A stretch of DNA of 64,000 bases from Kordia sp. (GTDB taxonomy: Bacteria; Bacteroidota; Bacteroidia; Flavobacteriales; Flavobacteriaceae). Position numbers and translations under genes: made by a program. A model generated the notes under the pieces. The model made no database searches. It saw only the letters and a program-made list of their open reading frames with translations, and was not told the DNA's origin. Position 1 is the first letter of the stretch, and each line of letters starts with the position of its first letter. Positions 1-15,676 of the stretch are shown one piece after another. The stretch covers positions 1-64,000 of the forward strand of contig NVVR01000014.1 of NCBI GenBank assembly GCA_002733415.1, given 5' to 3'.

Positions 1-3000
1 ACACTCAATGTAGTATTAACTTTAGAAGATACTACTCCACCAGATGTAACTAACTGCGCAGTACTGAATGCTACTTTAGAATGTTCAGGAACTGATAACC
101 AAACTATTGCTGATGCGTGGAACGCAGCTAATATCACGGCTTTAGAAAACTGTGTTGTTGACTCTTGTGATCCTGACTTTACAGGACAAGTAACATCAAA
201 TTATACTTTTTCCAATTTAATAACTACTTGTGGTTTAGGAGGTACTATTGCCGTAACCTATACCATTACTGATGATTGTGATAATAATGTAACGCTTCAA
301 GCAACATTAACATTAGAAGATACTACTCCACCAGATTTAACCAATTGTGCAGTACTGGATGCTACTTTAGAATGTGATGGAGCTAATAATGAAACCATTG
401 CTGATCAGTGGAATACCGCTAACATTACTGCTTTAGAAAACTGTGTTATTGACTCTTGTGATCCTGATTTTACAGGACAAGTAACTTCTGATTATGCATT
501 CACCAACTTAGCTAGCCTTTGTGGTGCTGGAGGAACACTTCTAGTAACTTATACTATAACTGACGATTGTAATAATAGTATAACATTGCAAGCTACATTA
601 ACACTGGAAGACACTACTCCACCAGATTTAGTAAACTGTGCAGTACTGGATGCTACCATAGAATGTGATGGAGCAAACAATGAAACTATTGCAGATACAT
701 GGAATGCCAATAATATTACAGCGCTGCAAACTTGTGGTACAGATGGCTGTGATGTAGATAATACCTTTGTGGTTACTTCAGATTATGCATTTACTAACTT
801 GAATAGTTCTTGTGGACTTGGTGGTACAATTACAGTTACCTATACCGTTTCTGATGATTGTGATAACAGTCAAACACTTACAGCTATATTAATTCTGGAA
901 GACACTACTCCACCGGATTTAGTAAATTGTACCGTTACCAATACAGCTTTAGAATGTACTGCTGATGGAAATGAAGCTGCTGCAGATCAATGGAATGCAG
1001 ATAATATTGCAGCACTGCTAAATTGTGGTACAGATGCCTGTGATGAGGATAATACTTTTGTAGTAACTTCTGATTATGATTTTACAAATTTAAATACCAT
1101 TTGTGGACCTTGTGGAACTATTACAGTAACATATACCATTACTGACGATTGTGACAACAGTCAAACATTGATTGCTACATTGACATTATCTGATGGTACA
1201 GGACCAGATTTATCGAACTGTGCTGTAACGGATCAAACGATAGAATGTGATGGAGATAATAATGAAACCATTGCTGATGCATGGAATGCAGGTAATATTA
1301 CTGCTTTAGAAGCTTGTGCTGATGATATTGCAGTAACAGTAACTTCTGATTATGAATTCATTAACTTAAGTAGCACTTGTGGTGCTGGAGGAACACTTTT
1401 AGTTACCTATACTATAACTGACGATTGTGATAATAGTGTAACGCTTCAAGCTACATTAACATTAGAAGATACTACTCCACCTGATTTAACTAACTGTGCA
1501 GATTTGAATGCTACAATAGAATGTGATGGAGCAAACAATGAAACTATTGCAGATACATGGAATGCCAATAATATTACAGCGCTACAAGATTGTGGTACAG
1601 ATGGCTGTGATGTAGATAATACCTTTGTGGTTACTTCTGATTATGTATTTACAAGCTTAACTACTACTTGTGGACTTGGAGGAACTATTACAGTTACCTA
1701 TACCGTTTCTGACGATTGTGATAACAGTCAAACACTTATAGCTATATTAACTCTGAAAGATAATACTCCCCCAGACTTAGTTAATTGTGCAGTACTAGAT
1801 GCTACCATAGAATGTGATGGAGAAAACAATGAAGCTACTGCCGATACATGGAATACTAATAATATTGCAGTACTACAAACTTGTGGTACAGATGCCTGTG
1901 ATGTAGATAATACCTTTGTGGTAACTTCTGATTATGTATTTACTAACTTGAGTAGTTCTTGTGGACTTGGTGGTACAATTACAGTTACCTATACCGTTTC
2001 TGATGATTGTGATAACAGTCAGACACTTACAGCAATATTAACACTGGAAGACACTACTCCACCGGATTTAGTAAACTGTGCAGTTATCAATACAACTTTA
2101 GAATGTACTGCTGATGGAAATGAAGCTACTGCCGACCAATGGAATGCAGATAATATTGCAGCCTTACAAACTTGTGGTACAGATGCCTGTGATGAGGATG
2201 ATACTTTTGTAGTAACTTCTGATTATGATTTTACAAATTTAAATACCATTTGTGGCCCTTGTGGAACTATTACAGTAACATATACCATTACTGACGATTG
2301 TGACAACAGCCAAACATTAATTGCTACATTGACATTATCTGATGGTACAGGACCAGATTTATCAAACTGTGCTGTAACTAATCAAACGATAGAATGTGAT
2401 GGAGCAAACAACGAAACTATTGCTAATGATTGGAATGCAGCAAACATAGCAGCTCTAGAAACTTGTGCTGATGACATTGCTATTACTGTAACTTCTGATT
2501 ATGCATTTGTGAACTTAAGTAGTACTTGTGGTGCGGGAGGAATATTAGCCGTAACATATACTATTACAGATGATTGTGATAATAGTGTAACCCTTCAAGC
2601 AACATTAACACTGGAAGATACTACTCCACCAGAATTAGAAAACTGTGCTACTCTTGATGCAGCATTAGAATGTTCAGGGGAAGACAATGAAGCTACTGCC
2701 AATACATGGAATCTTGCAAACATTGCAACCTTACAAACGTGTGGTACAGATGCCTGTGATATAGATGATACGTTTACGGTAACTTCTGATTATGATTTTG
2801 TAAACTTAAGTAGCTCTTGTGGGGCTGGAGGTACATTAGTTGTAACCTATACAATTACTGATGACTGTGGAAATTCAACTACTTTAGTAGCGACATTAAC
2901 ATTAGAAGATACAACCCCACCAGATTTAGAGAACTGTGCAGTACTTGATGCAACACTAGAATGTACTGGAGAAGACAATCAATCTATTGCAGATGGATGG

Positions 3001-4881
3001 AATTTTGCGAACATTGATACTCTTGAAAGTTGTGGTACAGATGCTTGTGATATAGATGATACGTTCATGGTAACTTCTGATTATGATTTTACTAACTTAA
3101 GTACTACTTGTGGTGCTGGAGGTACTATTCTAGTAACCTATACAATAACTGATGATTGTGGTAACCCTACTACTTTAGTAGCTACATTAACACTGGAAGA
3201 TACTACTCCACCAGATCTAGGAAATTGTACAGTGACTGATCTTACCGTAGAATGTACGGAGAATGGAAACGAAGCAATTGCTGATCAATGGAATTTAGAC
3301 AACATTGCTACTTTGCAAACATGTGCAACAGACGGTTGTGATACTGACAACATATTTGTAGTAACTTCCGATTATGATTATGTAAACCTAGACCCTTCAT
3401 GTGGTGTCTGTGGAGCGATAACAGTAAACTATACCATTGCTGATGATTGTGGAAATGAAACAGCTTTAACTGCTACTTTAACTTTATCTGACGGAACTAA
3501 TCCTGATTTAGCTAATTGTAATGTAACTGATACCACTATAGAATGTTCTGGGGAAAACAATGAAACTATCGCTAATGATTGGAATGCAGCAAATATTATA
3601 GCATTAGAAAATTGTGCCGATGACATTGCTGTTACTGTAACTTCTGATTATGTATTTACAAACTTAAACAGTACGTGTGGTGCTGGAGGGACAATACTAA
3701 TTAACTATACTGTTATGGATGATTGTAATAATGCAACAATAATAACTGTAACATTAACTTTAGAGGATACTACTCCACCTGATCTTGTAAACTGTAGCGT
3801 TGTTGATACTACTTTAGAATGTGCTGGAGATGATAATCAATCAATTGCTGATGGATGGAATAATACTAATATAACAGCATTACAAACCTGTGGAACTGAT
3901 GCTTGTGATATTGACAACACATTTGTAGTAACTTCTGATTATAACTTCGATAACTTAAGCATAACATGTGGTGTTGGTGGTACTATGATCGTGAACTATA
4001 CAATTACAGATGATTGTAATAACAGTCAAACATTAACTGCTACATTAACATTAACTGATACTACCGCTCCAGTACTTACCCTTGGAGATGACGGAAGTGC
4101 AGAATGTACTGGAAATGACCCATCTATGAATCTTGAATATATTGACTGGGTAAGTAGTTATGCTGGAATAACAGCTACAGATAATTGTGGATCAGTAACG
4201 CTGACTTTTACAGAAGGACAATGGACAAACGATGGGTGTTCTGATAGTATTACAGTAACATTTATAGCTACAGACGAATGTGAATTACAAGCAGAAACAA
4301 TTGAAAGATCATTTACAATATCTGATACTACTGCTCCGGAAATAACGCCAGAAATCCAAGATGTAGTGTTCTACTGTAATGACTTACCTCCTATTCCTAC
4401 ATTTGATGTAATTGAAGGATGTTCTGAAGCAAATATAGAATACAACGTTACCATTGAAGGTTCCGAAGGTGCTGCTGATTATCAAATTATAAGAACTTGG
4501 ACAATCACTGATAATTGTGGGAATGAAACTATTATAGAACAACTATTATTAGTTGAACCTGGTTGTGATTGTTTAGATGATATGTTCATCTCTAAAGCAA
4601 TTACTCCTAACGGTGATATATATAACGATTACTTCAAAGTTGAAGGTATTGATGACTGTGGTGTTCCTACATTAAAAATGTTTAACCGTTGGGGGGCACT
4701 TGTATACCAAAGCGATGATTATGATGCAAAAAAAGGACGTTGGAGAGGAACGGCTGAAAATGGAGGAACAACACTGGGTGGAAATAACGAACTACCAACA
4801 GGTACCTATTATTACATCATAGAAATAAGAAATAGCAACCTAAAAGCAATAACAGGACATGTTTACCTGAGTACTAATTAA
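1..4881 (+). CDS. Giant Ig-like repeat surface protein with T9SS type B sorting domain (5' partial)
   Basis: The frame is open from base 1, so signal peptide and N-terminus lie outside the window; 1,626 residues are visible. About residues 9-1351 are 14 tandem cysteine-rich Ig/HYR-like domains of 97 or 92 residues, each opening with a DTTPPDL- or SDGTGPDL-type motif and closing with TYTITDDC. Two diverged domains follow (TDTTAPVLTL, SDTTAPEITP). The last ~90 residues (ITPNGD..NDYF, FNRWG.LVY, PTGTYYY) form the gliding-motility C-terminal (type B) signal used by the type IX secretion system, so the product is expected on the cell surface or released. Family knowledge (SprB-like adhesins) suggests adhesion or gliding; the ligand is unknown. 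No PorP/SprF partner gene is adjacent: the next gene, pdxH, is convergent. Confidence 0.9.
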   Translation, partial: TLNVVLTLEDTTPPDVTNCAVLNATLECSGTDNQTIADAWNAANITALENCVVDSCDPDFTGQVTSNYTFSNLITTCGLGGTIAVTYTITDDCDNNVTLQATLTLEDTTPPDLTNCAVLDATLECDGANNETIADQWNTANITALENCVIDSCDPDFTGQVTSDYAFTNLASLCGAGGTLLVTYTITDDCNNSITLQATLTLEDTTPPDLVNCAVLDATIECDGANNETIADTWNANNITALQTCGTDGCDVDNTFVVTSDYAFTNLNSSCGLGGTITVTYTVSDDCDNSQTLTAILILEDTTPPDLVNCTVTNTALECTADGNEAAADQWNADNIAALLNCGTDACDEDNTFVVTSDYDFTNLNTICGPCGTITVTYTITDDCDNSQTLIATLTLSDGTGPDLSNCAVTDQTIECDGDNNETIADAWNAGNITALEACADDIAVTVTSDYEFINLSSTCGAGGTLLVTYTITDDCDNSVTLQATLTLEDTTPPDLTNCADLNATIECDGANNETIADTWNANNITALQDCGTDGCDVDNTFVVTSDYVFTSLTTTCGLGGTITVTYTVSDDCDNSQTLIAILTLKDNTPPDLVNCAVLDATIECDGENNEATADTWNTNNIAVLQTCGTDACDVDNTFVVTSDYVFTNLSSSCGLGGTITVTYTVSDDCDNSQTLTAILTLEDTTPPDLVNCAVINTTLECTADGNEATADQWNADNIAALQTCGTDACDEDDTFVVTSDYDFTNLNTICGPCGTITVTYTITDDCDNSQTLIATLTLSDGTGPDLSNCAVTNQTIECDGANNETIANDWNAANIAALETCADDIAITVTSDYAFVNLSSTCGAGGILAVTYTITDDCDNSVTLQATLTLEDTTPPELENCATLDAALECSGEDNEATANTWNLANIATLQTCGTDACDIDDTFTVTSDYDFVNLSSSCGAGGTLVVTYTITDDCGNSTTLVATLTLEDTTPPDLENCAVLDATLECTGEDNQSIADGWNFANIDTLESCGTDACDIDDTFMVTSDYDFTNLSTTCGAGGTILVTYTITDDCGNPTTLVATLTLEDTTPPDLGNCTVTDLTVECTENGNEAIADQWNLDNIATLQTCATDGCDTDNIFVVTSDYDYVNLDPSCGVCGAITVNYTIADDCGNETALTATLTLSDGTNPDLANCNVTDTTIECSGENNETIANDWNAANIIALENCADDIAVTVTSDYVFTNLNSTCGAGGTILINYTVMDDCNNATIITVTLTLEDTTPPDLVNCSVVDTTLECAGDDNQSIADGWNNTNITALQTCGTDACDIDNTFVVTSDYNFDNLSITCGVGGTMIVNYTITDDCNNSQTLTATLTLTDTTAPVLTLGDDGSAECTGNDPSMNLEYIDWVSSYAGITATDNCGSVTLTFTEGQWTNDGCSDSITVTFIATDECELQAETIERSFTISDTTAPEITPEIQDVVFYCNDLPPIPTFDVIEGCSEANIEYNVTIEGSEGAADYQIIRTWTITDNCGNETIIEQLLLVEPGCDCLDDMFISKAITPNGDIYNDYFKVEGIDDCGVPTLKMFNRWGALVYQSDDYDAKKGRWRGTAENGGTTLGGNNELPTGTYYYIIEIRNSNLKAITGHVYLSTN
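25..4053 (+). repeat. Tandem coding repeats, 14 units (291/276 bp), higher-order period 1,149 bp
   Basis: Unit boundaries, taken at the first codon of the EDTTPPD/SDGTGPD motif, fall at 25, 316, 607, 898, 1189, 1465, 1756, 2047, 2338, 2614, 2905, 3196, 3487, 3763 and 4054. Eleven units are exactly 291 bp; the three starting at 1189, 2338 and 3487 are 276 bp. These short units recur every 1,149 bp (three long units plus one short), so the array is itself built from four-domain blocks. Copies one block apart are close to identical in DNA over long runs, for example near 780-880 and 1920-2030. Confidence 0.95.
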
Positions 4882-4961
4882 TATAAAACTACTTCGTAAT
4901 AGAAATCAAAATTGTGTAATTATAGGGTTTAAGTTGATCTATTATTACGGAGTAGTTTATA
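4882..4961. repeat. Imperfect inverted repeat after the adhesin gene
   Basis: Bases 4882-4902 (TATAAAACTACTTCGTAATAG) pair imperfectly with 4939-4961 around a loop of about 36 bases. It lies directly after the adhesin stop codon and before convergent pdxH. There is no strong T-run, so it could be a weak terminator, an mRNA 3' stabiliser or a decayed repeat element. Confidence 0.5.
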
Positions 4962-5068
4962 ATAATCTAAAAGAAAATACTAATCAATTTTATAGAAACA
5001 ATTCCTTGCTATTGATACCAAGTAGTTATTTTAACCCCCAGTGAGTTTAAACTCCTTGATTGATAGCA

Positions 5069-5713
5069 TCAAGGAGATAGCCTATTAATTTTCCATGAAT
5101 AATCTTCTTGTAATTTATAAAGAATTCTATCATGTAACCTATTAGCTCGTCCTTGCCAAAATTCAATTTCTACGGGCTTTACTATATAACCTCCCCAATG
5201 TTTAGGGCGAGGAACAGCTTTATTTTCATATTCTACTTCTAACTTTTTTAATTTATCTTCTAAATCCTGACGAGAAACTTCTTCACTTTGGTTAGAAACT
5301 AAAGCACCTAACTGACTTCCTTTTGGTCGCGATTCAAAATAACCATCAGATAAATTTTCTGCTATTTTTTCAACTTTCCCTTTAATAATAACTTGTCGCT
5401 CTGCAGCATGCCAAAAAAATGAAATACAAACATTATTATTATTTGCTATTGCTTTACCTTTTTCACTATTGTAATTAGTATAAAAAATAAACCCTTCATA
5501 GGTATATTTTTTTAACAACACTACTCTACTCTTCGGAAACCCATCCAGGCCTATGGTAGCAACTGTCATTGCATTAGCTTCATCAGTAGTACCAGAATTA
5601 TCCACTTCATAAAACCATGTCTGAAATAACTGCAATGGATTATCAGGTACAGTACTCAATAACAGTTCTGATTTTTCGTATGATTTCCTATAATTACTTA
5701 AGTCTTTATTCAT
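5069..5713 (-). CDS. pdxH: Pyridoxamine 5'-phosphate oxidase
   Basis: Cytosolic FMN enzyme that oxidises pyridoxamine or pyridoxine 5'-phosphate to pyridoxal 5'-phosphate, the last step of PLP supply and salvage. The 214-residue length is normal for the family. Visible signatures are the FMN-site segments SRVVLLKKY and FYTNYNSEKGKAI, and the C-terminal EFWQGRANRLHDR motif in which R192 and H194 match the substrate-binding Arg/His of the family. The start is ATG. It is 26 bp downstream of rnz on the same strand, so the two are probably cotranscribed. A short inverted repeat (5052-5060 with 5068-5076) overlaps the stop codon. Confidence 0.95.
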   Translation of the reverse strand: MNKDLSNYRKSYEKSELLLSTVPDNPLQLFQTWFYEVDNSGTTDEANAMTVATIGLDGFPKSRVVLLKKYTYEGFIFYTNYNSEKGKAIANNNNVCISFFWHAAERQVIIKGKVEKIAENLSDGYFESRPKGSQLGALVSNQSEEVSRQDLEDKLKKLEVEYENKAVPRPKHWGGYIVKPVEIEFWQGRANRLHDRILYKLQEDYSWKINRLSP

Positions 5714-5739
5714 AAACTATACTTGAAATGCAATTTAAT

Positions 5740-6645
5740 TTAAAATTCAAATTCCTTACCATCATCTGCTAAAAGCACCTTGTTAAACACTTCTTTTGCT
5801 TCTTCTTTAAAACATTTAATTGTTCCATATCGTGTAGAAAAATGCCCTAATATCAACTTATCTACATTTGCTTTTAATGCAATTGTAGCGGCTTCTTTAG
5901 CAGTAGAGTGCTTTGTCTTTTTACATAAATGGGCATGTTCTTCTAAAAATGTACTCTCATGATATAAAGCAGTAACCTCTTTAATTATAGGGATAATAGT
6001 TTCTGTGTATTTTGTATCACTACAAAACGCATAACTTTTTGGAGGTTCTGGATCAGAACTTATTAAGGCATTTTTAATTAACACCCCTTTAATATTTACA
6101 ACATCTTTTCCTAACTTTATATTTCTATAATCACATTGCTCAATATTATAATTTAATACTGCATTGATATCTAACTTACGCTCTCCAAGTTTTTCTTTGA
6201 ATAAAAAACCATTGGTATATACTCTATGTACTAAAGGGATAGTATATACTGATACTTTATCATCTTCAAAAATTAATTCGGACTCTTTAGAAACTAATTC
6301 ATGGAATATTAATTCATACCCTCCATAGGAATTACCTAGTTTCAATTGCAATAAGATTACTTCTTTTATGCCTTTCGGTCCATAAACATGTAATGCTGCT
6401 TCTCTTCCTAAAAGACGAAATGTAGAAATTAATCCGATTAAACCAAAAAAATGATCCCCATGTAAATGTGAGACAAATACATGCTTTATTCTAGAAAATT
6501 TTATTTTAAATTTACGCAATTGTACTTGAGTACCTTCTCCACAATCTATTAAAAATAAATTGCCCTTCACATCCAATACTTGTGCAGTGGGATTGGTAAA
6601 AGCTCTTGGAGTAGCACTATAACAACCTAAAATGGTTAGTTTCAT
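5740..6645 (-). CDS. rnz: Ribonuclease Z (tRNA 3' endonuclease)
   Basis: Metallo-beta-lactamase-fold nuclease that trims the 3' trailer of tRNA precursors. The 301-residue length fits the short ElaC/RNase Z form. The zinc motif SHLHGDH is at residues 59-65 (H60, H62, D64, H65), later ligands are in the FCSDTKYTE and LGHFSTRYG segments, and HESTFLEEHA matches the exosite region of ElaC-type enzymes. ATG start. Transcribed toward pdxH; the gap of about 190 bp upstream separates it from the STAS-like gene. Confidence 0.93.
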   Translation of the reverse strand: MKLTILGCYSATPRAFTNPTAQVLDVKGNLFLIDCGEGTQVQLRKFKIKFSRIKHVFVSHLHGDHFFGLIGLISTFRLLGREAALHVYGPKGIKEVILLQLKLGNSYGGYELIFHELVSKESELIFEDDKVSVYTIPLVHRVYTNGFLFKEKLGERKLDINAVLNYNIEQCDYRNIKLGKDVVNIKGVLIKNALISSDPEPPKSYAFCSDTKYTETIIPIIKEVTALYHESTFLEEHAHLCKKTKHSTAKEAATIALKANVDKLILGHFSTRYGTIKCFKEEAKEVFNKVLLADDGKEFEF

Positions 6646-6838
6646 TTGTGTAATAATTTTTTAAAACCGAATGTGATTTCGAGTACAGTGAAGGAATTTC
6701 TTTGAATAAAATTACTTATGAAGAGCGGCCATTAATGAATTTTTATTTTTTAATATACTTCACCTTAATCTTATTTAAGATTCACAAAAGAACGATAACT
6801 TTGTATTAATTCTTTTATTAGTAAATATCACTGGTGAG
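6646..6838. other. Intergenic gap with degenerate repeat-like sequence
   Basis: This 193 bp gap contains GTGATTTCGAGTACAGTGAA (6671-6690) followed by GGAATTTCT, resembling the GTCATTTCGA...GAATCT ends of dispersed intergenic elements seen in many Bacteroidota. No convincing second arm or ORF is visible. It may also hold the rnz promoter. Confidence 0.35.
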
Positions 6839-7171
6839 CTAGAAATCTAAATCACGTTCTATTTCTTCCATTTCAATGATATCGTGTGCTTCATTAATTG
6901 TGGGTACAATTGATAGTTCTTCTGGAGCAATATCATAAGTGATTTTATCAGTTACTATAACAAATGATTTTTTATCCACTTTATGTTTTTTTGATAATGA
7001 TAAAAAATCGTTTATACCAGCTTCATTTATCTCTTTCACAGAAAAAAGGTTTACGATAATATTATCTCCTTTTATCTGATCGTGTTTTTTTTCAATATTA
7101 GCAACTAACTCAATAATAGTAGCTCTTTCTTGAGTAATTAATGTGGTATTCCCTGTCTTACTAAAAATCAT
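6839..7171 (-). CDS. Small STAS-like conserved protein
   Basis: A 110-residue acidic cytosolic protein with no signal or membrane segment. The alternating pattern (TLITQERATIIELVANIEKK, NIIVNLFSVKEINEAGINDFLSL, KSFVIVTDKI) fits a STAS/anti-sigma-antagonist-like fold: strand, 'VNL..V..I...G...FL', then 'SFVIV'. This is a fold-level inference, not a recognised family. Its ATG overlaps the TGA of pyrB by four bases (7168-7171), so it is translationally coupled to pyrimidine biosynthesis. The conserved phosphorylatable serine of classic antagonists is not evident. Such proteins may inherit a ribonuclease Z label from the neighbouring rnz; nothing in the sequence supports that name. Confidence 0.7.
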   Translation of the reverse strand: MIFSKTGNTTLITQERATIIELVANIEKKHDQIKGDNIIVNLFSVKEINEAGINDFLSLSKKHKVDKKSFVIVTDKITYDIAPEELSIVPTINEAHDIIEMEEIERDLDF

Positions 7172-8100
7172 AATTGTTTTATTTTAGAAGCTAATAAATA
7201 AATGACTGCCATCCTAATTGCAACTCCATTTTCTACTTGGTTTAATATAATCGCTTGATCAGAATCAGCTACTTCACTTGTCATCTCTACTCCTCTGTTT
7301 ATAGGGCCTGGATGCATTATTACAACTTCTTTATCTAAAGAGTTTAACAAGTCTTTTGTAACCCCATATTGTTGAGTATATTCTCTTGTAGAAGGGAAAT
7401 AACTAATATCCAAACGTTCATTTTGTATCCGCAACATATTAGCAACATCTGCCCATTCTAATGCCTTACGTAAATTGGTTTCTACAGTAACCCCTAACTT
7501 TTCAATATGTTTTGGTATTAATGTTTTCGGTCCACAAATTTTTACATTGGCTCCTTGTTTTTGCAGTGCGAAAATATTTGACAAAGCAACTCTTGAGTGT
7601 AAAATATCTCCAACTATTACCACATTTTTACCAGTCACTTCTCCTAAACGCTCCCGAATAGAATAGGAATCCAATAAAGCTTGTGTTGGGTGCTCATGGG
7701 CTCCATCACCCGCATTAATAATACTTGCCCCAATATGTTTCGATAAAAATACTCCAGCACCTGGATTTGGGTGACGCATAACTACCATATCAACTTTCAT
7801 AGAGAGTATATTGTTTACGGTATCAATTAATGTTTCTCCTTTTTTTACCGAAGATTGTGCTGCAGAAAAATTTACTACATCAGCAGATAAACGTTTTTCT
7901 GCTAATTCAAAAGATAATTTTGTACGAGTTGAATTTTCAAAAAATAAATTTGCTATCGTAATATCTCTTAGTGAAGGAACTTTTTTAATTGGTCGGTTGA
8001 TCACTTCTTTGAAGTGATCTGCTGTTTTAAAAATCAACTCAATATCTTTTGGTTGAATGTATTTAATTCCTAATAAATGGTTTACACTTAATTCGCTCAT
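7168..8100 (-). CDS. pyrB: Aspartate carbamoyltransferase catalytic subunit
   Basis: Catalyses carbamoyl phosphate + L-aspartate to N-carbamoyl-L-aspartate, the committed step of pyrimidine synthesis. It has 310 residues, the usual catalytic-chain length. The carbamoyl-phosphate site STRT is at residues 57-60 and the HPTQALLDSY segment and MHPGPINRGVE (C-terminal domain) are present. No pyrI is nearby, as expected for a class of ATCase without regulatory chains. Start ATG lies 4 bp after the pyrR stop, and the end overlaps the STAS-like gene, giving a tight pyrR-pyrB-orf operon. Confidence 0.96.
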   Translation of the reverse strand: MSELSVNHLLGIKYIQPKDIELIFKTADHFKEVINRPIKKVPSLRDITIANLFFENSTRTKLSFELAEKRLSADVVNFSAAQSSVKKGETLIDTVNNILSMKVDMVVMRHPNPGAGVFLSKHIGASIINAGDGAHEHPTQALLDSYSIRERLGEVTGKNVVIVGDILHSRVALSNIFALQKQGANVKICGPKTLIPKHIEKLGVTVETNLRKALEWADVANMLRIQNERLDISYFPSTREYTQQYGVTKDLLNSLDKEVVIMHPGPINRGVEMTSEVADSDQAIILNQVENGVAIRMAVIYLLASKIKQL

Positions 8101-8104
8101 CTTC

Positions 8105-8647
8105 TTATTTTGATATTAAATAAACCGTATCCTCACCGTCATTCTCAGCCCACTTTACGGCAACTTTCTCTTCATTAATCACATCAACTTGTCTACCTCT
8201 ATAATTTGGCTGTATTGGTAAATGTCTACTAAAACGCCTGTCAATCAGTGTTAACAATTCAACATCTTGAGGTCTTCCAAAAGATTGTATCGCAGCGAGT
8301 GCAGCACTTATACTTCTTCCAGTATACAATACATCATCAATAAAAATTACATTTTTATCTTCTACAATAAAATCTATAATAGTTGTATTTGCTTCTAAGG
8401 GTTTATCCCCTCTTCTGAAATCATCTCTAAAAAAAGTAATGTCCAATAGTCCTAATTGGACATTAGGAATTTTATAAAAATCTTCTAATAAAAATTTAAT
8501 TCTATTTGCTAAAAAAGCACCTCTTGGTTGAATACCAATTAATACGGTGTTAGAAAAATCTTCATGCTTTTCAATTAACTGAGCCGTTAATCGGTGAAGT
8601 ATAATGTTGACTTCTTTTGAGCTAAGTAACACTTTTTGCTTTGTCAT
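8105..8647 (-). CDS. pyrR: Bifunctional pyr operon regulator / uracil phosphoribosyltransferase
   Basis: A 180-residue type I phosphoribosyltransferase. The PRPP-binding motif VIFIDDVLYTGRS is clear, and GIQPRGAFLA with the DITFFRDDF segment is PyrR-like. In Firmicutes PyrR binds pyr mRNA and also converts uracil + PRPP to UMP; RNA regulation has not been demonstrated here and no attenuator is visible in the short leader. The reading frame extends three codons upstream to a TTG, but the ATG at 8647 is preferred. First gene of the pyr operon. Confidence 0.92.
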   Translation of the reverse strand: MTKQKVLLSSKEVNIILHRLTAQLIEKHEDFSNTVLIGIQPRGAFLANRIKFLLEDFYKIPNVQLGLLDITFFRDDFRRGDKPLEANTTIIDFIVEDKNVIFIDDVLYTGRSISAALAAIQSFGRPQDVELLTLIDRRFSRHLPIQPNYRGRQVDVINEEKVAVKWAENDGEDTVYLISK

Positions 8648-8672
8648 GAATTCCAAACTGTTATTTGGAAAA

Positions 8673-8680
8673 CAAATTTA
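8673..8680 (-). promoter_or_regulatory. Candidate -7 box of pyrR operon
   Basis: On the minus strand TAAATTTG matches the Bacteroidota -7 consensus TAnnTTTG, 25 bases upstream of the pyrR ATG. A TTG at the usual 19-21 base spacing is not present, so this is tentative. Confidence 0.35.
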
Positions 8681-8697
8681 ATAAATATAACTCAATA

Positions 8698-9450
8698 TTA
8701 TCTATTTCCTCCAATACTTTTGAATGGAACTAATACCCGTTTTACAAATGAATCATTCAATATTTTTTTTGTAACACCAATTTGTCGTAATCTAACTCTA
8801 CTAATAGGGTTACCGTAAAGTGCCCATACATATTTTTTCTTCTGTGGATATTTTATTAATAAATCCTCATAATTTTGATATGAAAACGATATCTTTTGTC
8901 CTTCATATTGATCAATCAATTTATAAATCGAGTCTTTGAATAAACTTGAAGATTTATATAATCTACTAGGAACATAATAGCTAGTTGTAAACCCTTTCTT
9001 TTTTATATACTGTAGTACTTTAATATTTTTTGATTCTACTAAAATTAAACCCTTATTTAATTTATATTTCCTTATTAGAAAAAGAAGTTTATCCGCAGAA
9101 GACTCTCTATTGTAGCTAGTTAAGTTTTTAAAATCTAACCAAATTTTTAATTTTTTATTTGAAATTTTAGAAAAATACTTATCTAAACTCAAACCTATAC
9201 TCTCAGTTGGGGGGTGATAAATATCAAATTTATTAGTTTCTTTATCATAATAAACATCTAACTCAACACCATTAAAATAGATGTTAGCTTGAGTTAGCTT
9301 TGTTATTGTATTTACTCTATGAGCATGAACTTTACTTATAGCAGTGAAGTGTTCTACCCTATATGGTATATATTGATATATATTATAAAGTAATATACTT
9401 ACTAAAAATAAATCGATACTAATTGAAACTACTTTTAAAGGCTTAGTCAT
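8698..9450 (-). CDS. Membrane-anchored FAM151/GDPD-like protein
   Basis: A 250-residue protein with an N-terminal hydrophobic segment (about residues 8-30) and an otherwise soluble, presumably periplasmic domain. The order HAHRVNT, NGVELDVYYD, YHPP, then KIWLDFKNL matches the PLC-like TIM barrel of glycerophosphodiester phosphodiesterases and more closely the FAM151/DUF2181 family, where H..NS, EADV, HPP and LDFK motifs recur. The assignment is by eye and substrate is unknown. The start ATG overlaps the end of the phosphoethanolamine-transferase-like gene by 8 bp, so the pair is one operon. Base composition is strikingly AT-rich compared with flanking pyrR and rpsA. Confidence 0.6.
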   Translation of the reverse strand: MTKPLKVVSISIDLFLVSILLYNIYQYIPYRVEHFTAISKVHAHRVNTITKLTQANIYFNGVELDVYYDKETNKFDIYHPPTESIGLSLDKYFSKISNKKLKIWLDFKNLTSYNRESSADKLLFLIRKYKLNKGLILVESKNIKVLQYIKKKGFTTSYYVPSRLYKSSSLFKDSIYKLIDQYEGQKISFSYQNYEDLLIKYPQKKKYVWALYGNPISRVRLRQIGVTKKILNDSFVKRVLVPFKSIGGNR

Positions 9451-11065
9451 AAATTATTTTCTCTAAACGTGTGTTTATAATTTTTTGTTTATCAAAATTA
9501 TATTCATTGCTAAATATGCTTTTTGTCAAATCAATTTCACTAAATTCTATATTTGATAATTCTGAAAAACTATGAATAAAATCACCCATTACATAAATTC
9601 TATTTGGGTAATAATTAAATGTATTATTTTTTTTATACCCGTCAGACATCCATACTAAAAACGGTATTTCATACATAGGTTTGGTTGGGTTCCTATCAGA
9701 ATGTTCTATAGCTTTTGTTACATTTTCAAAAACATCAACTCCATGATCTGAAAAATACGTTACATAAGCTTCAGTATTAGTATCACTTACTTTGTCAATT
9801 ACTGAATTAACTATAAAGTCATTATACCTTATTGCATTATCATATTCATTAATTATCTGTTGCTTTTTTTTATCATTTATTTTTGTTGGTGGCACATCAG
9901 TAAATTTATTAAAGTTACTTGGATATCGGTGTATAAAATTCCAATGAGCCCCCATTAAGTGAATGAAAATCATTTTATGAGGTGCATTATCTTTTAATAA
10001 ATTATCTAGTTCGGGTAATATCTTTTCATCATAGGACTCAAAATCATAATCTTCATAATTAACAAAAATTGATTTATCCGCGGCTGATGCAATTTTAGAA
10101 GTAGATGTTTCATTTGCACCAATTTGTCGTTGGTTTGACAACCAATACGTTTTAAAACCAGCCATATTAGCTAATTGCACAATAGAAGCTTTTATATCAT
10201 TTTCTTTAAGATGATCAAAATAACCTATTTCCTTTTTCTTATGTAGTAAAATATGATTTAATGAGAATATTGTCCAAGCACTAGTAGAAAATACATTATT
10301 ATATAATTTTAAGTTTTTATTTTTTTCTGTTAATAATGGATTTGTGTTTCTTTTATAACCATATAACCCCATATGACCCCTTGTAGTTGATTCACCAATA
10401 ACAACAACATAAATTTTAGGAATTATTGATGTTTTTGAAACATATTTAAATAAACTATTGGTTTTAGACTTTAGTTTTGAGTCAAAAGCATCATGTGTTT
10501 TTTTAAAATCATAAATGGAACTTGCAACTGTATATGTAAAATTATACTTCCTTAAATGAAAACCTCTATATAAAATAAAAGAGATGACGACCACAAATAA
10601 CGAACTCATTACTACATTTCTATTCTTAATAAGATTATTATTATTCCTAAAATCTTTTATTAAAAAAAATAAATAACAAAAAAATATAATTGTGTATACA
10701 ATAATGTTGATGTTTAGGTTTGTAGATAAATATTCATCTACTTCTTTTCCGTAAGTCTCTAGAATAGTATATACTAATGATTTACTAATCTTATATCCAT
10801 AAACTTCATAAAATGCTATTTTTAAATATTGCACAAAAGCCACAACAAATGATGTAATGATATAATAATATTTAGCAAACTTTAATTCTTTAATTAAATA
10901 ATAGACAAACAATAACAATATTAGTGAAGTTAATGTATTCTCTAGCTCTCTAACAAATTCATATAAGTTAAATGAATAAAGTATGTATAACGAATAAAAA
11001 GCAAATGGGATAATAATATATTTCACCCTATTAGTAAAAGCTAAAAAATAGTTTATTATGTCCAT
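9443..11065 (-). CDS. Phosphoethanolamine transferase-like sulfatase-fold membrane enzyme
   Basis: 540 residues from the ATG at 11065; the longer frame would begin at a TTG inside the rpsA terminator. About five hydrophobic segments occupy the first ~180 residues, followed by a periplasmic alkaline-phosphatase/sulfatase-fold domain. VVIGESTTRGHMGLYGY (with S226-T227-T228) matches the nucleophile block of EptA/EptC/CptA enzymes, and IHLMGAHW and FSDHGVDV match the metal-binding and C-terminal motifs. These enzymes move phosphoethanolamine from phosphatidylethanolamine to lipid A, core sugar or other glycans; the acceptor here is unknown. Codons are very AT-rich, perhaps a sign of a surface-modification gene under turnover. 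Confidence 0.85.
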   Translation of the reverse strand: MDIINYFLAFTNRVKYIIIPFAFYSLYILYSFNLYEFVRELENTLTSLILLLFVYYLIKELKFAKYYYIITSFVVAFVQYLKIAFYEVYGYKISKSLVYTILETYGKEVDEYLSTNLNINIIVYTIIFFCYLFFLIKDFRNNNNLIKNRNVVMSSLFVVVISFILYRGFHLRKYNFTYTVASSIYDFKKTHDAFDSKLKSKTNSLFKYVSKTSIIPKIYVVVIGESTTRGHMGLYGYKRNTNPLLTEKNKNLKLYNNVFSTSAWTIFSLNHILLHKKKEIGYFDHLKENDIKASIVQLANMAGFKTYWLSNQRQIGANETSTSKIASAADKSIFVNYEDYDFESYDEKILPELDNLLKDNAPHKMIFIHLMGAHWNFIHRYPSNFNKFTDVPPTKINDKKKQQIINEYDNAIRYNDFIVNSVIDKVSDTNTEAYVTYFSDHGVDVFENVTKAIEHSDRNPTKPMYEIPFLVWMSDGYKKNNTFNYYPNRIYVMGDFIHSFSELSNIEFSEIDLTKSIFSNEYNFDKQKIINTRLEKIIYD

Positions 11066-11108
11066 TTTCTTAAGTTTGGTATGTTTTAGTTTGAGTATAA
11101 ATATAAAA

Positions 11109-11135
11109 AAACCTCTCAATACAATTGAGAGGTTT
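11109..11135 (-). terminator. Rho-independent terminator of rpsA
   Basis: Perfect 12-bp stem AAACCTCTCAAT / ATTGAGAGGTTT with a 3-base loop, followed on the minus strand by a run of T. It sits just after the rpsA stop and ahead of the phosphoethanolamine-transferase-like gene. Confidence 0.9.
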
Positions 11136-11159
11136 TAAGTTTAAAATATTAGGTGAATA

Positions 11160-12914
11160 TTACTTCCCTTCCATTTTGTCTTTAAGTGCTTGTAACGCAT
11201 TGTTAGCATCACCTAAAGTTGGTTTGTCTGCAGTTGCAGCTTTCTTAGCAGCAGCTTTTACATTCTTCTCCTCTTCTTCTCTGAAAAGTGCAGTATGCGA
11301 TGCTACAACTCTTTTAAAATCTTTGTTAAATTCAATGATTTTAAATTCTGCTGAATCTCCTTTTTTCAATTTAGATCCATCTTCTTTCTCTAAGTGACGA
11401 GAAGGAATGAATGCTACGATGTCTTCATTGATTGTTACTGTTGCTCCTTTATCAACCATTTCATCAATAGTTGCAGTGTGAACAGTTCCTAAACCAAATT
11501 CAGCTTCATATTTATCCCAAGGATTGTCTTGAGTTTGCTTATGACCTAAAGAGATTTTTCTTCCGTCAACATCTAATTCTAATACAACAACCTCTAATTT
11601 GTCACCTACAGTTACAAAATCAGATGGATGCTTGATTTTCTTAGTCCAAGATAAGTCAGAGATGTAAATTAATCCATCAATTCCTTCTTCTAATTCTAAG
11701 AATACACCAAAGTTAGTAAAGTTACGTACAGTTCCTGTGTGCTTAGAAGCTACAGGATATTTAGTAGTAATATCAGTCCAAGGATCTTGCGTTAATTGCT
11801 TAATACCTAATGACATTTTACGGTCTTCTCTGTCTAAAGTTAATACAACAGCATCCACTACATCTCCGATTTTAACGAAATCCTGAGCTGAACGTAAGTG
11901 CGTTGACCATGACATTTCAGAAACGTGAATTAATCCTTCAACTCCTTGAGATACTTCAATAAATGCACCATAATCAGCGATTACAACTACTTTACCTTTA
12001 ACTTGATCACCAACTTTTAAGTCAGCATCTAAAGCTTCCCATGGGTGAGCGCTTAATTGCTTTAATCCTAATTGGATTCTTGATTTCTTATCATCAAAGT
12101 CTAAGATTACAACATTTAATTTTTGATCTAATTCAACAATCTCATTTGGATGGTTGATTCTTGACCAAGATAAATCTGTAATATGAACTAATCCATCAAC
12201 TCCACCAAGATCAATAAATACACCATAAGAAGTAATGTTTTTAACAATACCTTCAAGTACTTGACCTTTTTCTAATTGACCGATAATTTCTTTTTTCTGG
12301 ATTTCGATATCCGCTTCAATAAGCGCTTTATGCGAAACAACAACGTTTTTAAATTCGTGGTTGATTTTCACAACTTTGAATTCCATTGTTTTGTTTACAT
12401 ACTGATCGTAATCTCTAATAGGCTTCACATCAATTTGAGAACCTGGTAAGAATGCTTCAATACCAAATACATCAACGATCATACCTCCTTTAGTTCTACA
12501 CTTAACAAAACCGTTTACGATTTCTCCTGTCTCGTGAGCACTATTTACTCTGTCCCAAGCTTTGATTACTCTAGCTTTTCTGTGAGATAATACTAACTGA
12601 CCTGTTTTGTCTTCTCTAATGTCTACAAGAACTTCTACTTTGTCACCAACTTTTAAATCTGGGTTGTAACGGAACTCATTTAATGAGATTACACCTTCAG
12701 ATTTTGCGTTAATGTCAATAATAGCTTCTCTTTCAGTTAAGAAAACTATTGTACCTTCAACTACTGTATCATCTTCCGTGTCAACAAAGTTTTCTGATAC
12801 TAATTTTTCGAACTCTTCTAATACTGCATCTTCAACAGGGTCAATTCCTTCTTCGTAATTGTGCCAGTTAAAATCTGCTAAAAATTCTTCTTGTGTTTTT
12901 GTTTCTTCAGCCAT
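11160..12914 (-). CDS. rpsA: 30S ribosomal protein S1
   Basis: A 584-residue protein with a short acidic N-terminus and six S1 RNA-binding repeats; the third to fifth are the most regular (GQVLEGIVKNITSYGVFIDLG, GDQVKGKVVVIADYGAFIEV, TGTVRNFTNFGVFLELEEG). S1 brings mRNA to the 30S subunit, which matters in Bacteroidota where Shine-Dalgarno pairing is weak. Codon use is clearly more GC-balanced than in neighbours, as in highly expressed genes. ATG start; own promoter and leader upstream, strong terminator downstream. Confidence 0.97.
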   Translation of the reverse strand: MAEETKTQEEFLADFNWHNYEEGIDPVEDAVLEEFEKLVSENFVDTEDDTVVEGTIVFLTEREAIIDINAKSEGVISLNEFRYNPDLKVGDKVEVLVDIREDKTGQLVLSHRKARVIKAWDRVNSAHETGEIVNGFVKCRTKGGMIVDVFGIEAFLPGSQIDVKPIRDYDQYVNKTMEFKVVKINHEFKNVVVSHKALIEADIEIQKKEIIGQLEKGQVLEGIVKNITSYGVFIDLGGVDGLVHITDLSWSRINHPNEIVELDQKLNVVILDFDDKKSRIQLGLKQLSAHPWEALDADLKVGDQVKGKVVVIADYGAFIEVSQGVEGLIHVSEMSWSTHLRSAQDFVKIGDVVDAVVLTLDREDRKMSLGIKQLTQDPWTDITTKYPVASKHTGTVRNFTNFGVFLELEEGIDGLIYISDLSWTKKIKHPSDFVTVGDKLEVVVLELDVDGRKISLGHKQTQDNPWDKYEAEFGLGTVHTATIDEMVDKGATVTINEDIVAFIPSRHLEKEDGSKLKKGDSAEFKIIEFNKDFKRVVASHTALFREEEEKNVKAAAKKAATADKPTLGDANNALQALKDKMEGK

Positions 12915-12963
12915 AGCTGTAGTAATAATTTGTATTCCGAGTTGTTTAAGAGTATTTAAGCAT

Positions 12964-12980
12964 ACAACTTCAGAAGTTGT
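12964..12980 (-). promoter_or_regulatory. Leader hairpin in rpsA 5' UTR
   Basis: A perfect inverted repeat ACAACTTC-A-GAAGTTGT lies about 50 bases upstream of the rpsA ATG, inside the predicted untranslated leader. In RNA it gives a 7-bp stem with a 3-base loop. It may be an mRNA feature used in S1 autoregulation, but that is inference. Confidence 0.45.
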
Positions 12981-13032
12981 TTATAGTTATATTTTTCCAT
13001 TCCTCTTATACTCAATTCTGCTAAAAGGACTG

Positions 13033-13063
13033 CAAAAGTACAACTATATTCATTTAATTACAA
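13033..13063 (-). promoter_or_regulatory. Bacteroidota-type promoter of rpsA
   Basis: On the minus strand a TTG (13061-13063) is followed after exactly 20 bases by TACTTTTG (13033-13040), a full match to TAnnTTTG with normal spacing. Transcription would begin near 13026, leaving a leader of about 110 bases. Confidence 0.75.
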
Positions 13064-13312
13064 TATTTTAGAACCATTAATATCATAAAAATAACATCAA
13101 CCGCTTCGTTGTTGGATTAAAGAATAAAGAATTGTTAGCAAATAAAAAAAAATGTTAGTTATATATCATCCACTATTGCAAAAAAACAAATTACAGTTTT
13201 TGAAAAAACTAGTAAATATAATAAGTATTTAAAGCTTATAAAATTATGGCATGCTGTTTGAATAGTAAAAAGCAACTACAAATAAGTACTTTTATAAATC
13301 AATTAAAAATAC

Positions 13313-13320
13313 TATATTTG
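13313..13320 (+). promoter_or_regulatory. Candidate -7 box of LysM gene
   Basis: TATATTTG fits TAnnTTTG, 37 bases upstream of the LysM gene ATG. No TTG lies at the expected upstream distance, so it is only a candidate. Confidence 0.4.
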
Positions 13321-13357
13321 AGTAAATCAATATTAATTTAATAAAATTTAATCAATT

Positions 13358-13738
13358 ATGCCTGTAAAAGAAAAGTATCAAGATGTATTAGACTTAGGGG
13401 AAAAATTAGGAATCGCTGACGGAGAAGTTAGAATTGAAGATGGTATCTTAAAAGTAAAAGGAACTGCAAATACTCCATACGAAAAAAACTTAATGTGGAA
13501 TGCAATTAAATCTATTGGAGGAGATAGTCCTACAGACTTAATGGCTAACATTACTGTTGCCGATGATTCAGTATACCACAGACATACTGTAATAAGTGGA
13601 GAGACTTTAGGAGGAATTGCAAAACACTACTTTAAAAACGCAATGAAATACAAAGAAATTTTTTCTGCAAATACAAATGTATTAGATAATCCAGATTTAA
13701 TTAAAGTTGGTCAAGTGCTAGATATTCCAAATTTATAG
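13358..13738 (+). CDS. BON/LysM small protein (Kbp/YgaU-like)
   Basis: A 126-residue protein without a signal peptide. Residues ~1-70 resemble a BON-like domain (DGEVRIEDGILKVKGTANT), and residues ~74-126 are a LysM domain (HTVISGETLGGIAKHYF...NPDLIKVGQVLDIP). The same two-part layout is found in E. coli Kbp (YgaU), a cytoplasmic potassium-binding protein; shared function is inferred from architecture only. It is monocistronic with its own terminator and stands divergent from rpsA. Codon use looks typical of a well-expressed gene. Confidence 0.85.
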   Translation: MPVKEKYQDVLDLGEKLGIADGEVRIEDGILKVKGTANTPYEKNLMWNAIKSIGGDSPTDLMANITVADDSVYHRHTVISGETLGGIAKHYFKNAMKYKEIFSANTNVLDNPDLIKVGQVLDIPNL

Positions 13739-13760
13739 TTACATCTTACCATATAAAAAT

Positions 13761-13790
13761 AAAAAAGAAGCTCAATGAGCTTCTTTTTTT
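13761..13790 (+). terminator. Terminator of LysM gene
   Basis: AAAAAAGAAGCTC and its complement flank a 3-base loop, ending in a T-run. It stands 23 bases after the stop codon and may work in both directions. Confidence 0.9.
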
Positions 13791-13871
13791 ATATCCGCTA
13801 ACTTGGGTTTAATTATTTTACTTAATCATTACTATCAGCTAATGCATATTTTACTGTACGTTCAATTCATA

Positions 13872-14564
13872 CTAGCTACAAACATCAGTAACCAATTTTA
13901 ATATTTTATCAAATTGTTCATCTATAGACAAATTAGAATTATCAATTTCAATTGCATCTGAAGCTTTTACTAGTGGCGAATTTTTTCTATGAGTATCAAT
14001 ATAATCACGTTCTCTAACATTATGCAAAACTTCTTCATAGGTTACCGCATCCCCTTTAGCTGTAAGTTCATCAAAACGACGTGTTGCACGTATTTTATCA
14101 GATGCCGTCATAAATAATTTTAATTCAGCATTAGGAAATACAACTGTTCCAATATCCCTACCATCCATAACGACACCTGCTCCTTCTCCTATTTCTTGTT
14201 GTTGTTTTACCAACTGATAGCGAACTTCTGGAACTGCTGCAACTTTACTCACAAAACTAGAAACATGCATTGTACGGATTTCCTTTTCAACATTTACCCC
14301 ATTTAAATACACTTCTGCAAATTTTAATTCTGGATTATACTTAAATGAGATAACAATTTTATGAAGTTCTATAATAAAATCATTTATATTAAAATGAGTT
14401 TCAGAAATAAAGCCATTATTTAATGCATATAATGTTGTTACGCGATACATTGCTCCTGTGTCCACATAAACATAGCCTAAATTATTGGCTAATTGTTTCG
14501 CTAGCGTACTTTTCCCTGTAGAGGAATACCCATCAATAGCAATGATAATTTTCTTTGAATTCAA
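13872..14564 (-). CDS. cmk: Cytidylate kinase
   Basis: Phosphorylates CMP/dCMP to the diphosphates. The 230-residue length and the P-loop GYSSTGKST (residues 12-20), VMDGRDIGTVVFP and the lid segment RATRRFDEL are diagnostic. The start is a TTG: the frame is closed by a TGA three codons upstream and no ATG occurs before the P-loop strand, so TTG at 14564 is the only sensible start. It begins one base after the porQ stop codon, implying coupling with porQ. Order lon-porQ-cmk is common in flavobacteria. Confidence 0.95.
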   Translation of the reverse strand: MNSKKIIIAIDGYSSTGKSTLAKQLANNLGYVYVDTGAMYRVTTLYALNNGFISETHFNINDFIIELHKIVISFKYNPELKFAEVYLNGVNVEKEIRTMHVSSFVSKVAAVPEVRYQLVKQQQEIGEGAGVVMDGRDIGTVVFPNAELKLFMTASDKIRATRRFDELTAKGDAVTYEEVLHNVRERDYIDTHRKNSPLVKASDAIEIDNSNLSIDEQFDKILKLVTDVCS

Positions 14565-14565
14565 T

Positions 14566-15585
14566 TTATTTCAAATTAATATTTAAACCGAATGTGTGCA
14601 CATTTGCAGCTGCACTAAATTTCTGAAACGCGTAATTCACTCTGAACTTATTAAGTTTTATACCAAACCCTCCTGTTATCCCTGCAAATACTCTATTACC
14701 TTCTATTTTTAACTCATGTCCTCTTCTAAAGTTATAACCAAACCTTAAATTGATTGCTTTACCATGAAATAACTCACCACCTATTACTATATGCTGTGTT
14801 AACTTATTGAAAAAAGAAATTTCCTCCTGAGTTTCAACTCCATCTAAATCAACTTCTGATCTTGCAGGGTTTCTAAAAGATAAATCCCATTGCTGTAAGT
14901 TTTCAAAAACGATGTGCCACTTTAATGGTAATTTATCTAGCTCTCTTCCAAAGGCTAAGTCTACATGAAAAGGAATTTGCTCTCTGGTATTTTCATAAGT
15001 CGTAAACTGTGTCCCTAAATTAGAGGCAACCAATGTTAATTGTGAATTTGAATTTTTAAAATCATACAGCATTGCAATATCTAAGGCTCCTCCAATTGAT
15101 GAGTAAGTTTCTAATTTTGATGATATAAACTTCCCATTTACTCCTAGCTTTAAATTTGGGTCAGGAAAAGCAAGCATATATCCTACAGTTAAAGCAAACT
15201 CATTACCCGAAAAACTACCGGTACTTATACCGTTTTCATCAAAACCATTAAAATCTCCATAATCTACGTAAGTAATTCCAGCAGAAATTAGATGGTTCTT
15301 TTCTCCAAAACTACTAGCATACGCTAAACTTCCATAATTAATATCTGCAAAATAATTTACGAAATTCATGGCCAATTGCCCATCCATATCACTATTAATA
15401 GCTGCAGGATTGTGTAATGCTTGAGACGTATCCCAATCCATATTTGTTAACACCTTACCTCCTAGTGCCGCTTGACGGGGGGAAGAAATTAAATTTAAAA
15501 ACTCATATGTATATCTACCTCCAACTTGAGCAGTTGCATTAAATACGCCTAAAAAGACAATAAGTACCAATACTTTTTTAATCAT
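14566..15585 (-). CDS. porQ: Type IX secretion system protein PorQ
   Basis: A 339-residue outer-membrane protein with signal peptide (MIKKVLVLIVFLGVFNATA, cleavage before QVGG) and beta-barrel-like strands ending NVHTFGLNINLK. The segment EFLNLISSPRQAALGGK and the internal DTSQALHNPAAI match PorQ, which in Porphyromonas works with PorU/PorV/PorZ in the attachment complex that removes C-terminal signals and links T9SS cargo to the surface. The longer frame starts at an ATG inside the lon terminator, so the ATG at 15585 is chosen. It lies next to lon and cmk, the usual flavobacterial context. Confidence 0.88.
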   Translation of the reverse strand: MIKKVLVLIVFLGVFNATAQVGGRYTYEFLNLISSPRQAALGGKVLTNMDWDTSQALHNPAAINSDMDGQLAMNFVNYFADINYGSLAYASSFGEKNHLISAGITYVDYGDFNGFDENGISTGSFSGNEFALTVGYMLAFPDPNLKLGVNGKFISSKLETYSSIGGALDIAMLYDFKNSNSQLTLVASNLGTQFTTYENTREQIPFHVDLAFGRELDKLPLKWHIVFENLQQWDLSFRNPARSEVDLDGVETQEEISFFNKLTQHIVIGGELFHGKAINLRFGYNFRRGHELKIEGNRVFAGITGGFGIKLNKFRVNYAFQKFSAAANVHTFGLNINLK

Positions 15586-15643
15586 AAATACAAAATAAGT
15601 AAATCTTAAATTGAAAACGCCAATATTTAAAAAATATTTCACA

Positions 15644-15676
15644 AAAAAAAAGAGCCTCATAATGAGACTCTTTTTT
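15644..15676 (-). terminator. Terminator of lon
   Basis: AAAAAGAGcCTCAT paired with its near complement, one mismatch, and long A/T tails on both sides. It separates lon from porQ/cmk, so porQ probably has its own promoter or relies on read-through. Confidence 0.8.

Follow-up and report, generated by a model that had tools for sequence, protein, structure and literature searches.

Tandem-domain adhesins are usually stiffened by Ca2+ bound at the linkers, by domain interfaces or by intradomain bonds. An inter-domain disulfide between adjacent Ig-like domains is known from the Siglecs, where a single bond closes one joint (domain 1-domain 2); proposed here is a tandem array with two such bonds per joint. 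The giant adhesin of Mobiluncus mulieris, like this proposed rod, is a long Ig-like array stabilised covalently, and differs in that its ester, isopeptide and disulfide bonds lie within domains, with a flexible inter-domain linker (PMC10619420). Disulfides also matter in the SprB/SprF gliding adhesin, which is, like our protein, a giant repeat protein with a CHU_C sorting domain of type B; there, an SprF-GldK disulfide links SprF to the track and, unlike the bonds proposed here, does not join adhesin domains (PMC12635249). The nearest sequence families are HYR (PF02494) and HYR_4C (PF23237, 'HYR-like domain with 4 cysteines'), which share with the domains studied here the DTTPP linker, the DNC and TDxCGN motifs and the tandem arrays, and which are matched above cut-off by domains of three related loci (L045, L124, L114). 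The Kordia domains are unlike HYR in a helix of ~19 residues that takes the place of strand B, in the cysteines C1/C3 and in their 7/5 variation; they have no HYR match above cut-off, nor did HYR_4C give one for the window's protein or its 3′ part. In the open-access literature searched we found no mention of HYR_4C, no published bond assignment for it and no account of disulfides joining the domains of such repeats.

The window is the whole stretch analysed, 64,000 nucleotides of Kordia sp. contig NVVR01000014.1. Its base 1 is base 1 of the contig (C30), which cuts off the 5′ end and N-terminus of the gene and leaves 1,626 C-terminal residues of a repeat surface protein. By its C-terminal CHU_C/TIGR04131 domain the protein is a predicted T9SS type B cargo (CHU_C 75.0 bits, cut-off 27; TIGR04131 43.2, cut-off 35). 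The features are listed in Table 1. The full domains are 97 or 92 residues long, and the fourteen of the main array have, in order, 6,6,6,7,5,6,6,7,5,6,6,7,5,6 cysteines on translation. Cysteines are named by alignment column: C1 (11), C2 (20), C3 (43), C4 (48), C5 (69), the extra Cb (72) and C6 (85); a prime marks the next domain. Ahead of each short domain the linker reads SDGT[GN]P, replacing [EK]D[TN]TPP. The Connexin40_C profile (PF16791) also matches the frame, with 85 bits summed over three repeat stretches against a gathering score of 32; this label is a false annotation, the protein being a bacterial T9SS cargo that carries CHU_C, and relatives likely carry the same one. The minus-strand neighbours look unrelated.

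Table 1. Features of the Kordia repeat protein and its surroundings (window coordinates)
Feature	Position	Strand	Remarks
T9SS-exported repeat surface protein (predicted)	1..4881	+	open frame; CHU_C/TIGR04131 at aa 1530-1623; contig start
14 tandem HYR-like/cadherin-like domains	25..4053	+	translation; alignment A1
7-Cys domain 1	898..1188	+	C5 codon 1102-1104; Cb codon 1111-1113
5-Cys 92-aa domain 1	1189..1464	+	C1 codon 1219-1221, proposed partner of Cb 1111-1113 (C1 partner rule)
7-Cys domain 2	2047..2337	+	C5 2251-2253; Cb 2260-2262
5-Cys 92-aa domain 2	2338..2613	+	C1 codon 2368-2370
7-Cys domain 3 (CGVCG)	3196..3486	+	C5 3400-3402; Cb 3409-3411
5-Cys 92-aa domain 3	3487..3762	+	C1 codon 3517-3519
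4-Cys HYR-like domain	4054..4320	+	only C2, C4, C5, C6; putative staple register carried on past the 6-Cys array
Last Ig-like domain	4321..4560	+	C2, C4, C6 kept; C5 absent
Tail	4561..4878	+	three Cys (GCDC, DDCG) and CHU_C T9SS sorting domain
Neighbour genes	5069-18126	-	pyridoxamine phosphate oxidase; beta-lactamase-fold hydrolase; ATCase/OTCase-type carbamoyltransferase; phosphoribosyltransferase; sulfatase family; ribosomal S1; Lon

The original prediction placed the short 92-residue domains exactly 1,149 bp apart (at 1189, 2338 and 3487), each behind a domain with a compensating extra cysteine. On translation the spacing is exact, and a 5-Cys short domain stands directly after a 97-aa 7-Cys domain in three of three cases (CGPCG, CGPCG, CGVCG). 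At the protein level pairs 1 and 2 share 90% identity and pair 3 has 70%, so these copies are not independent, and the window alone is modest evidence against chance. Two more 7+5 pairs, of 57-63% identity, are present in a congener (L040/L062), separated by three 6-Cys domains, and in other relatives 0 to 6 such domains lie between pairs; the regular four-domain layout that had been read from the window is therefore local to this genome and, unlike the 7+5 pairing, is not conserved in relatives.

A scan of 84,980 genomes yielded 75 loci with related domains, those with 7+5 pairs coming from Psychroserpens, Bizionia, Lacinutrix and others. Throughout the 75 loci, the domain after every 7-Cys domain lacks one cysteine of the C3/C4 pair. 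Whether the two types occur independently in homologues was tested, and they do not: in the enlarged, de-duplicated set a 5-Cys domain follows the 7-Cys domain in 69/69 complete cases from about 29 loci, with no real exception, and every 5-Cys domain of the same family with a visible predecessor follows a 7-Cys domain (one predecessor lies beyond a contig end). Counted over the 6/7/5 family, domains after a Cb domain have one cysteine in the C3/C4 segment 70 times and two cysteines never; domains after a non-Cb domain have two in 287 cases, and a six-Cys domain stands after a Cb domain in 0/287. The five-Cys domains of L107, which come after non-Cb domains, were considered as exceptions and ruled out as a different HYR type. 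With these counts a chance origin of the pairing is untenable. Among 53 pairs taken from different loci none of the 12 Cys columns varies, at ~67% mean amino acid identity, and fourfold sites in the same pairs differ at 0.61 (0.65 expected at saturation). The comparisons indicate that the 7+5 pairing is under selection and that the spacing of the pairs is not. All pairs may nevertheless go back to a single ancestral pair through copying of the whole block.

The orphaned cysteine of the short domain can be sought among 851 domains. C1 accompanies two cysteines in the C3/C4 segment in 362 domains, none of them after a Cb domain; it accompanies one such cysteine in 70 domains whose predecessor has Cb, and in 43 without Cb before, mostly HYR types with a strand-G Cys. 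Because C1 occurs with a C3/C4 doublet, with a preceding Cb or, mostly, with a strand-G Cys, it seems to be a cysteine in need of a partner, which would be C3, the strand-G Cys or the preceding domain's Cb. The short domain has a 5-residue deletion, and its lone C3/C4-segment cysteine is spaced to the next strand like C4; this spacing fits loss of C3, and hence a Cb(n)-C1(n+1) bond, although the exact pairing among three bonds at the 7>5 joint would be an assignment by elimination. The extra inter-domain disulfide originally proposed for this joint is well supported, as the best explanation of a cysteine gain matched by a loss in the next domain, with the orphan cysteine at the facing pole.

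Joints of the wider HYR-like family were surveyed in ~1,800 near-full domains (Flavobacteriaceae, Saprospiraceae, Crocinitomicaceae, Chitinophaga and others), with cysteine labels from a profile alignment; 1,503 neighbouring pairs entered the joint tables, the proteins being related and the cases clustered. C5(n) and C6(n+1) are both present at 1492 joints, both absent at 11 and discordant at 0 (p=4.7e-28); C2(n) and C4(n+1) are both present at 1492, both absent at 8 and discordant at 3 (p=2.6e-19). These p-values assume independent joints, which the joints are not, and within-protein shuffles are a better guide: their mean discordances are 13.5 and 16.2, with minima of 6 and 7, against the observed 0 and 3. 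The three discordant pairs look like alignment faults. Within domains no association was found among C2, C4, C5 and C6 in any combination (p at least 0.07), and same-domain co-loss amounts to 1 case for C2+C5 and 0 for C4+C6, against 11 and 8 across the joint.

Alternating arrays with C5/C6′ co-loss occur in separate lineages (L114, L045, L120, L119, L191, L122), a domain without C5 being followed by one without C6 in L114, L045 and L120; those with C2/C4′ co-loss are likewise from separate lineages (L124, L186, L116, L123, L196), and in each a domain without C2 precedes one without C4. In L114, from a Saprospiraceae MAG (frame 3425-15100), C5-less and C6-less types alternate in strict register along a long array. 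L120 is a Bacteroidota-type HYR_4C giant protein in a record titled Euryarchaeota archaeon MAG, which is probably misbinned. Informative co-losses come to no more than 11 and 8 pairs (a larger number once HYR types are included), with clusters of them in some proteins, and within the 6/7/5 family C2, C4, C5 and C6 seldom vary, so that for this family the claim of bonds at every joint rests mainly on homologues and on array ends. The window follows the cross-joint rule (C5/C6′ and C2/C4′ present together), including the loss of C5 in the last domain.

Several apparent exceptions to the rule were rejected. Thirteen pairs with 'C5 without C6' are members or neighbours of another 4-Cys HYR subfamily, which has C1, C4, C5′ and CG and is without C2 or C6. 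The case in L190 is masked sequence, and 44 of 47 cases of 'C4 without C2' disappear if a cysteine displaced to the beginning of strand B is included; the remaining three seem to be starts that are degenerate or misaligned.

Among 9,297 inter-domain column pairs, mean-field DCA on 1,583 neighbouring domain pairs put C2-C4′ in second place and C5-C6′ in third (z 7.3 and 5.9); on n,n+2 pairs they dropped to ranks 787 and 577. Within the domain C1-C3 is coupled (z 3.8), C2-C5 is weak (z 2.6), C2-C4 is at z 0.1 and C4-C6 gives no signal. The Cys part of the signal stems from the same loci as the co-losses, and with the informative loci removed it is mostly gone; the non-Cys couplings 19-3′, 70-84′ and 71-50′ stay, and independently of the cysteines they set the C2/C5 end of a domain opposite its successor's linker/C4/C6 end. 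D2, D46, D83 and N87 (domain columns 2, 46, 83 and 87) make up a cluster of coupled positions at the N-terminal pole, with Cb not involved, which may bind Ca2+ at the joint in the manner of cadherins.

No usable relative came out of PDB sequence searches. AF2 models of the 6-7-5-6 unit (pLDDT 92.8, pTM 0.66) and the 7-5 unit (pLDDT 92.3, pTM 0.75) are confident and show, in each domain, a beta-sandwich and one long helix; at these pTM values for four and for two domains the joint orientation is partly defined; Cb opens strand F, adjoining the C-terminal pole of its domain in the model. The best Foldseek matches are cadherin-like adhesin domains, those of the Aeromonas RTX adhesin (6xi1) and staphylococcal SraP (4m03/4m00), and cadherins, none of them close. 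These too are beta-sandwich rods with acidic linkers; they are unrelated in sequence and are described as Ca2+-stiffened, whereas here the Cys covariation would imply covalent joints.

First domains of arrays often lack C6, and last domains lack C5; the two-domain 6-Cys arrays L088, L089 and L158-L160 show both, the first domain being without C6 and the second without C5. Cysteine parity at the C-terminus is consistent with two bonds per joint in 10/10 proteins. For the window, absence of C5 from the last Ig-like domain is expected, because no next domain offers a C6 partner, and the odd number of cysteines in the tail leaves a partner over for C2 of that domain. The first domain of the arrays in L082, L100, L165 and L166 keeps C4 and is without C6; since the ~100 residues upstream are Cys-free, one cysteine lacks an obvious partner under two-bond joints. 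In L160 (protein coordinates 112-300, first frame) the first domain has gained a linker Cys (DPC) adjoining C4, and the upstream Cys of its relatives L088, L158 and L159 is absent; the linker Cys is possibly a local rescue.

Observed are a sequence pattern with perfect adjacency, co-loss across joints, the coevolution signal of this co-loss and conservation; the architecture we consider quite likely for them is a T9SS-exported rod with joints closed by C2-C4′ and C5-C6′, and at 7>5 joints also by Cb-C1′. Each domain would have C2 and C5 at its C-terminal pole, with C4 and C6 at the opposite, N-terminal one, so placed that at every joint C2(n) would bond C4(n+1) and C5(n) would bond C6(n+1); C1-C3 would be an additional intradomain bond of 6-Cys domains. 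The 5-Cys domain would have lost C3, setting C1 free, and the preceding domain would have gained Cb, three residues past C5, whose bond to the freed C1′, paid for by giving up C1-C3, would make a triple-stapled joint. The single covalent link per four domains of the original prediction is thus probably wrong, the covariation over the 1,503 joints pointing to two links per joint, and its six cysteines of an ordinary domain would not be a self-contained set, as four of the six appear bonded to neighbours, two per joint. The disulfides would form by periplasmic oxidation, either ahead of T9SS export or in the course of it, and the type B signal would route the rod to that system. The genome encodes VKOR-type oxidases; no match to the DsbA family was found there. 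The rod, stiff and sensitive to reduction, would likely serve to hold a surface protein off the cell or to bear load. The bonds themselves, the pairing of the three at 7>5 joints and this function, with its stiffness, protease resistance and load-bearing, we infer.

Ordinary domains might instead be self-contained (C1-C3, C2-C5, C4-C6), leaving the 7>5 joint as the only one with an inter-domain disulfide, one per four domains. This would account for the 7/5 compensation, and the modelled placement of C2/C5 at one pole and C4/C6 at the other would make intradomain caps sterically possible, to judge from the inferred topology. It also predicts same-domain co-loss of C2+C5 and of C4+C6, which the counts given above contradict; DCA has nothing for C4-C6 and little for C2-C5 against the strong couplings across the joint, and array ends lose precisely those cysteines that have no neighbour. 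We hold it to be unlikely. One staple per joint, with C5-C6′ between domains, C2-C4 within them and a further bond at 7>5, has the attraction of zero unpaired cysteines in the first domains of L082 and the three similar arrays, or in two-domain arrays; it is made distinctly improbable by the C2(n)/C4(n+1) co-loss in the five alternating arrays named above, by C-terminal tails with an odd Cys count, and by DCA, where C2-C4′ is prominent across the joint and its counterpart inside the domain is not. The C2/C4′ co-loss table thus contradicts both this arrangement and a wholly intradomain one.

Two further readings leave joints with two bonds aside and concern the 7+5 pair or the extra cysteines. 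A single ancestral pair may have been duplicated as a unit, its two changes being functionally unlinked: repeat arrays do evolve through block duplication, the 90% identity of window pairs 1 and 2 fits such copying, and a domain tree built with the type-defining columns removed did not distinguish a single from a repeated origin of the 7 and 5 types. Yet the variable number of 6-Cys domains between pairs means that units were gained and lost with the pair never split, and twelve invariant cysteines at near-saturated fourfold divergence are not given by neutrality, which makes such a frozen block very improbable. Extra cysteines serving inter-chain disulfides (fibre bundling) or metal binding, in place of within-chain links, would be compatible with covariation alone, and the coupled acidic cluster suggests a joint Ca2+ site, though one without Cb; the strict n to n+1 register, lost at n+2, points to the next domain of the same chain, and we give this reading scarcely any credence.

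Beyond the two-bond rod of this protein, it seems likely, on a somewhat less firm footing, that Bacteroidota HYR-like surface proteins are continuous disulfide ladders with two bonds per joint, in which nearly every core cysteine is tied to the domain before or after its own, end domains shed one cysteine on the side that has no neighbour and some lineages arrive at triple-bonded joints by trading C1-C3 for Cb-C1′. If so, all-covalent joints would be a different mechanical design, with no bending or unfolding at the joints. The rod would withstand proteases, and reduction would turn it into a flexible chain. Export would then raise the question of whether the rod crosses the T9SS already oxidised or still unsealed. 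The cysteine rule would also allow joints, array ends and broken assemblies to be predicted from sequence in the many unannotated giant proteins of Bacteroidota.
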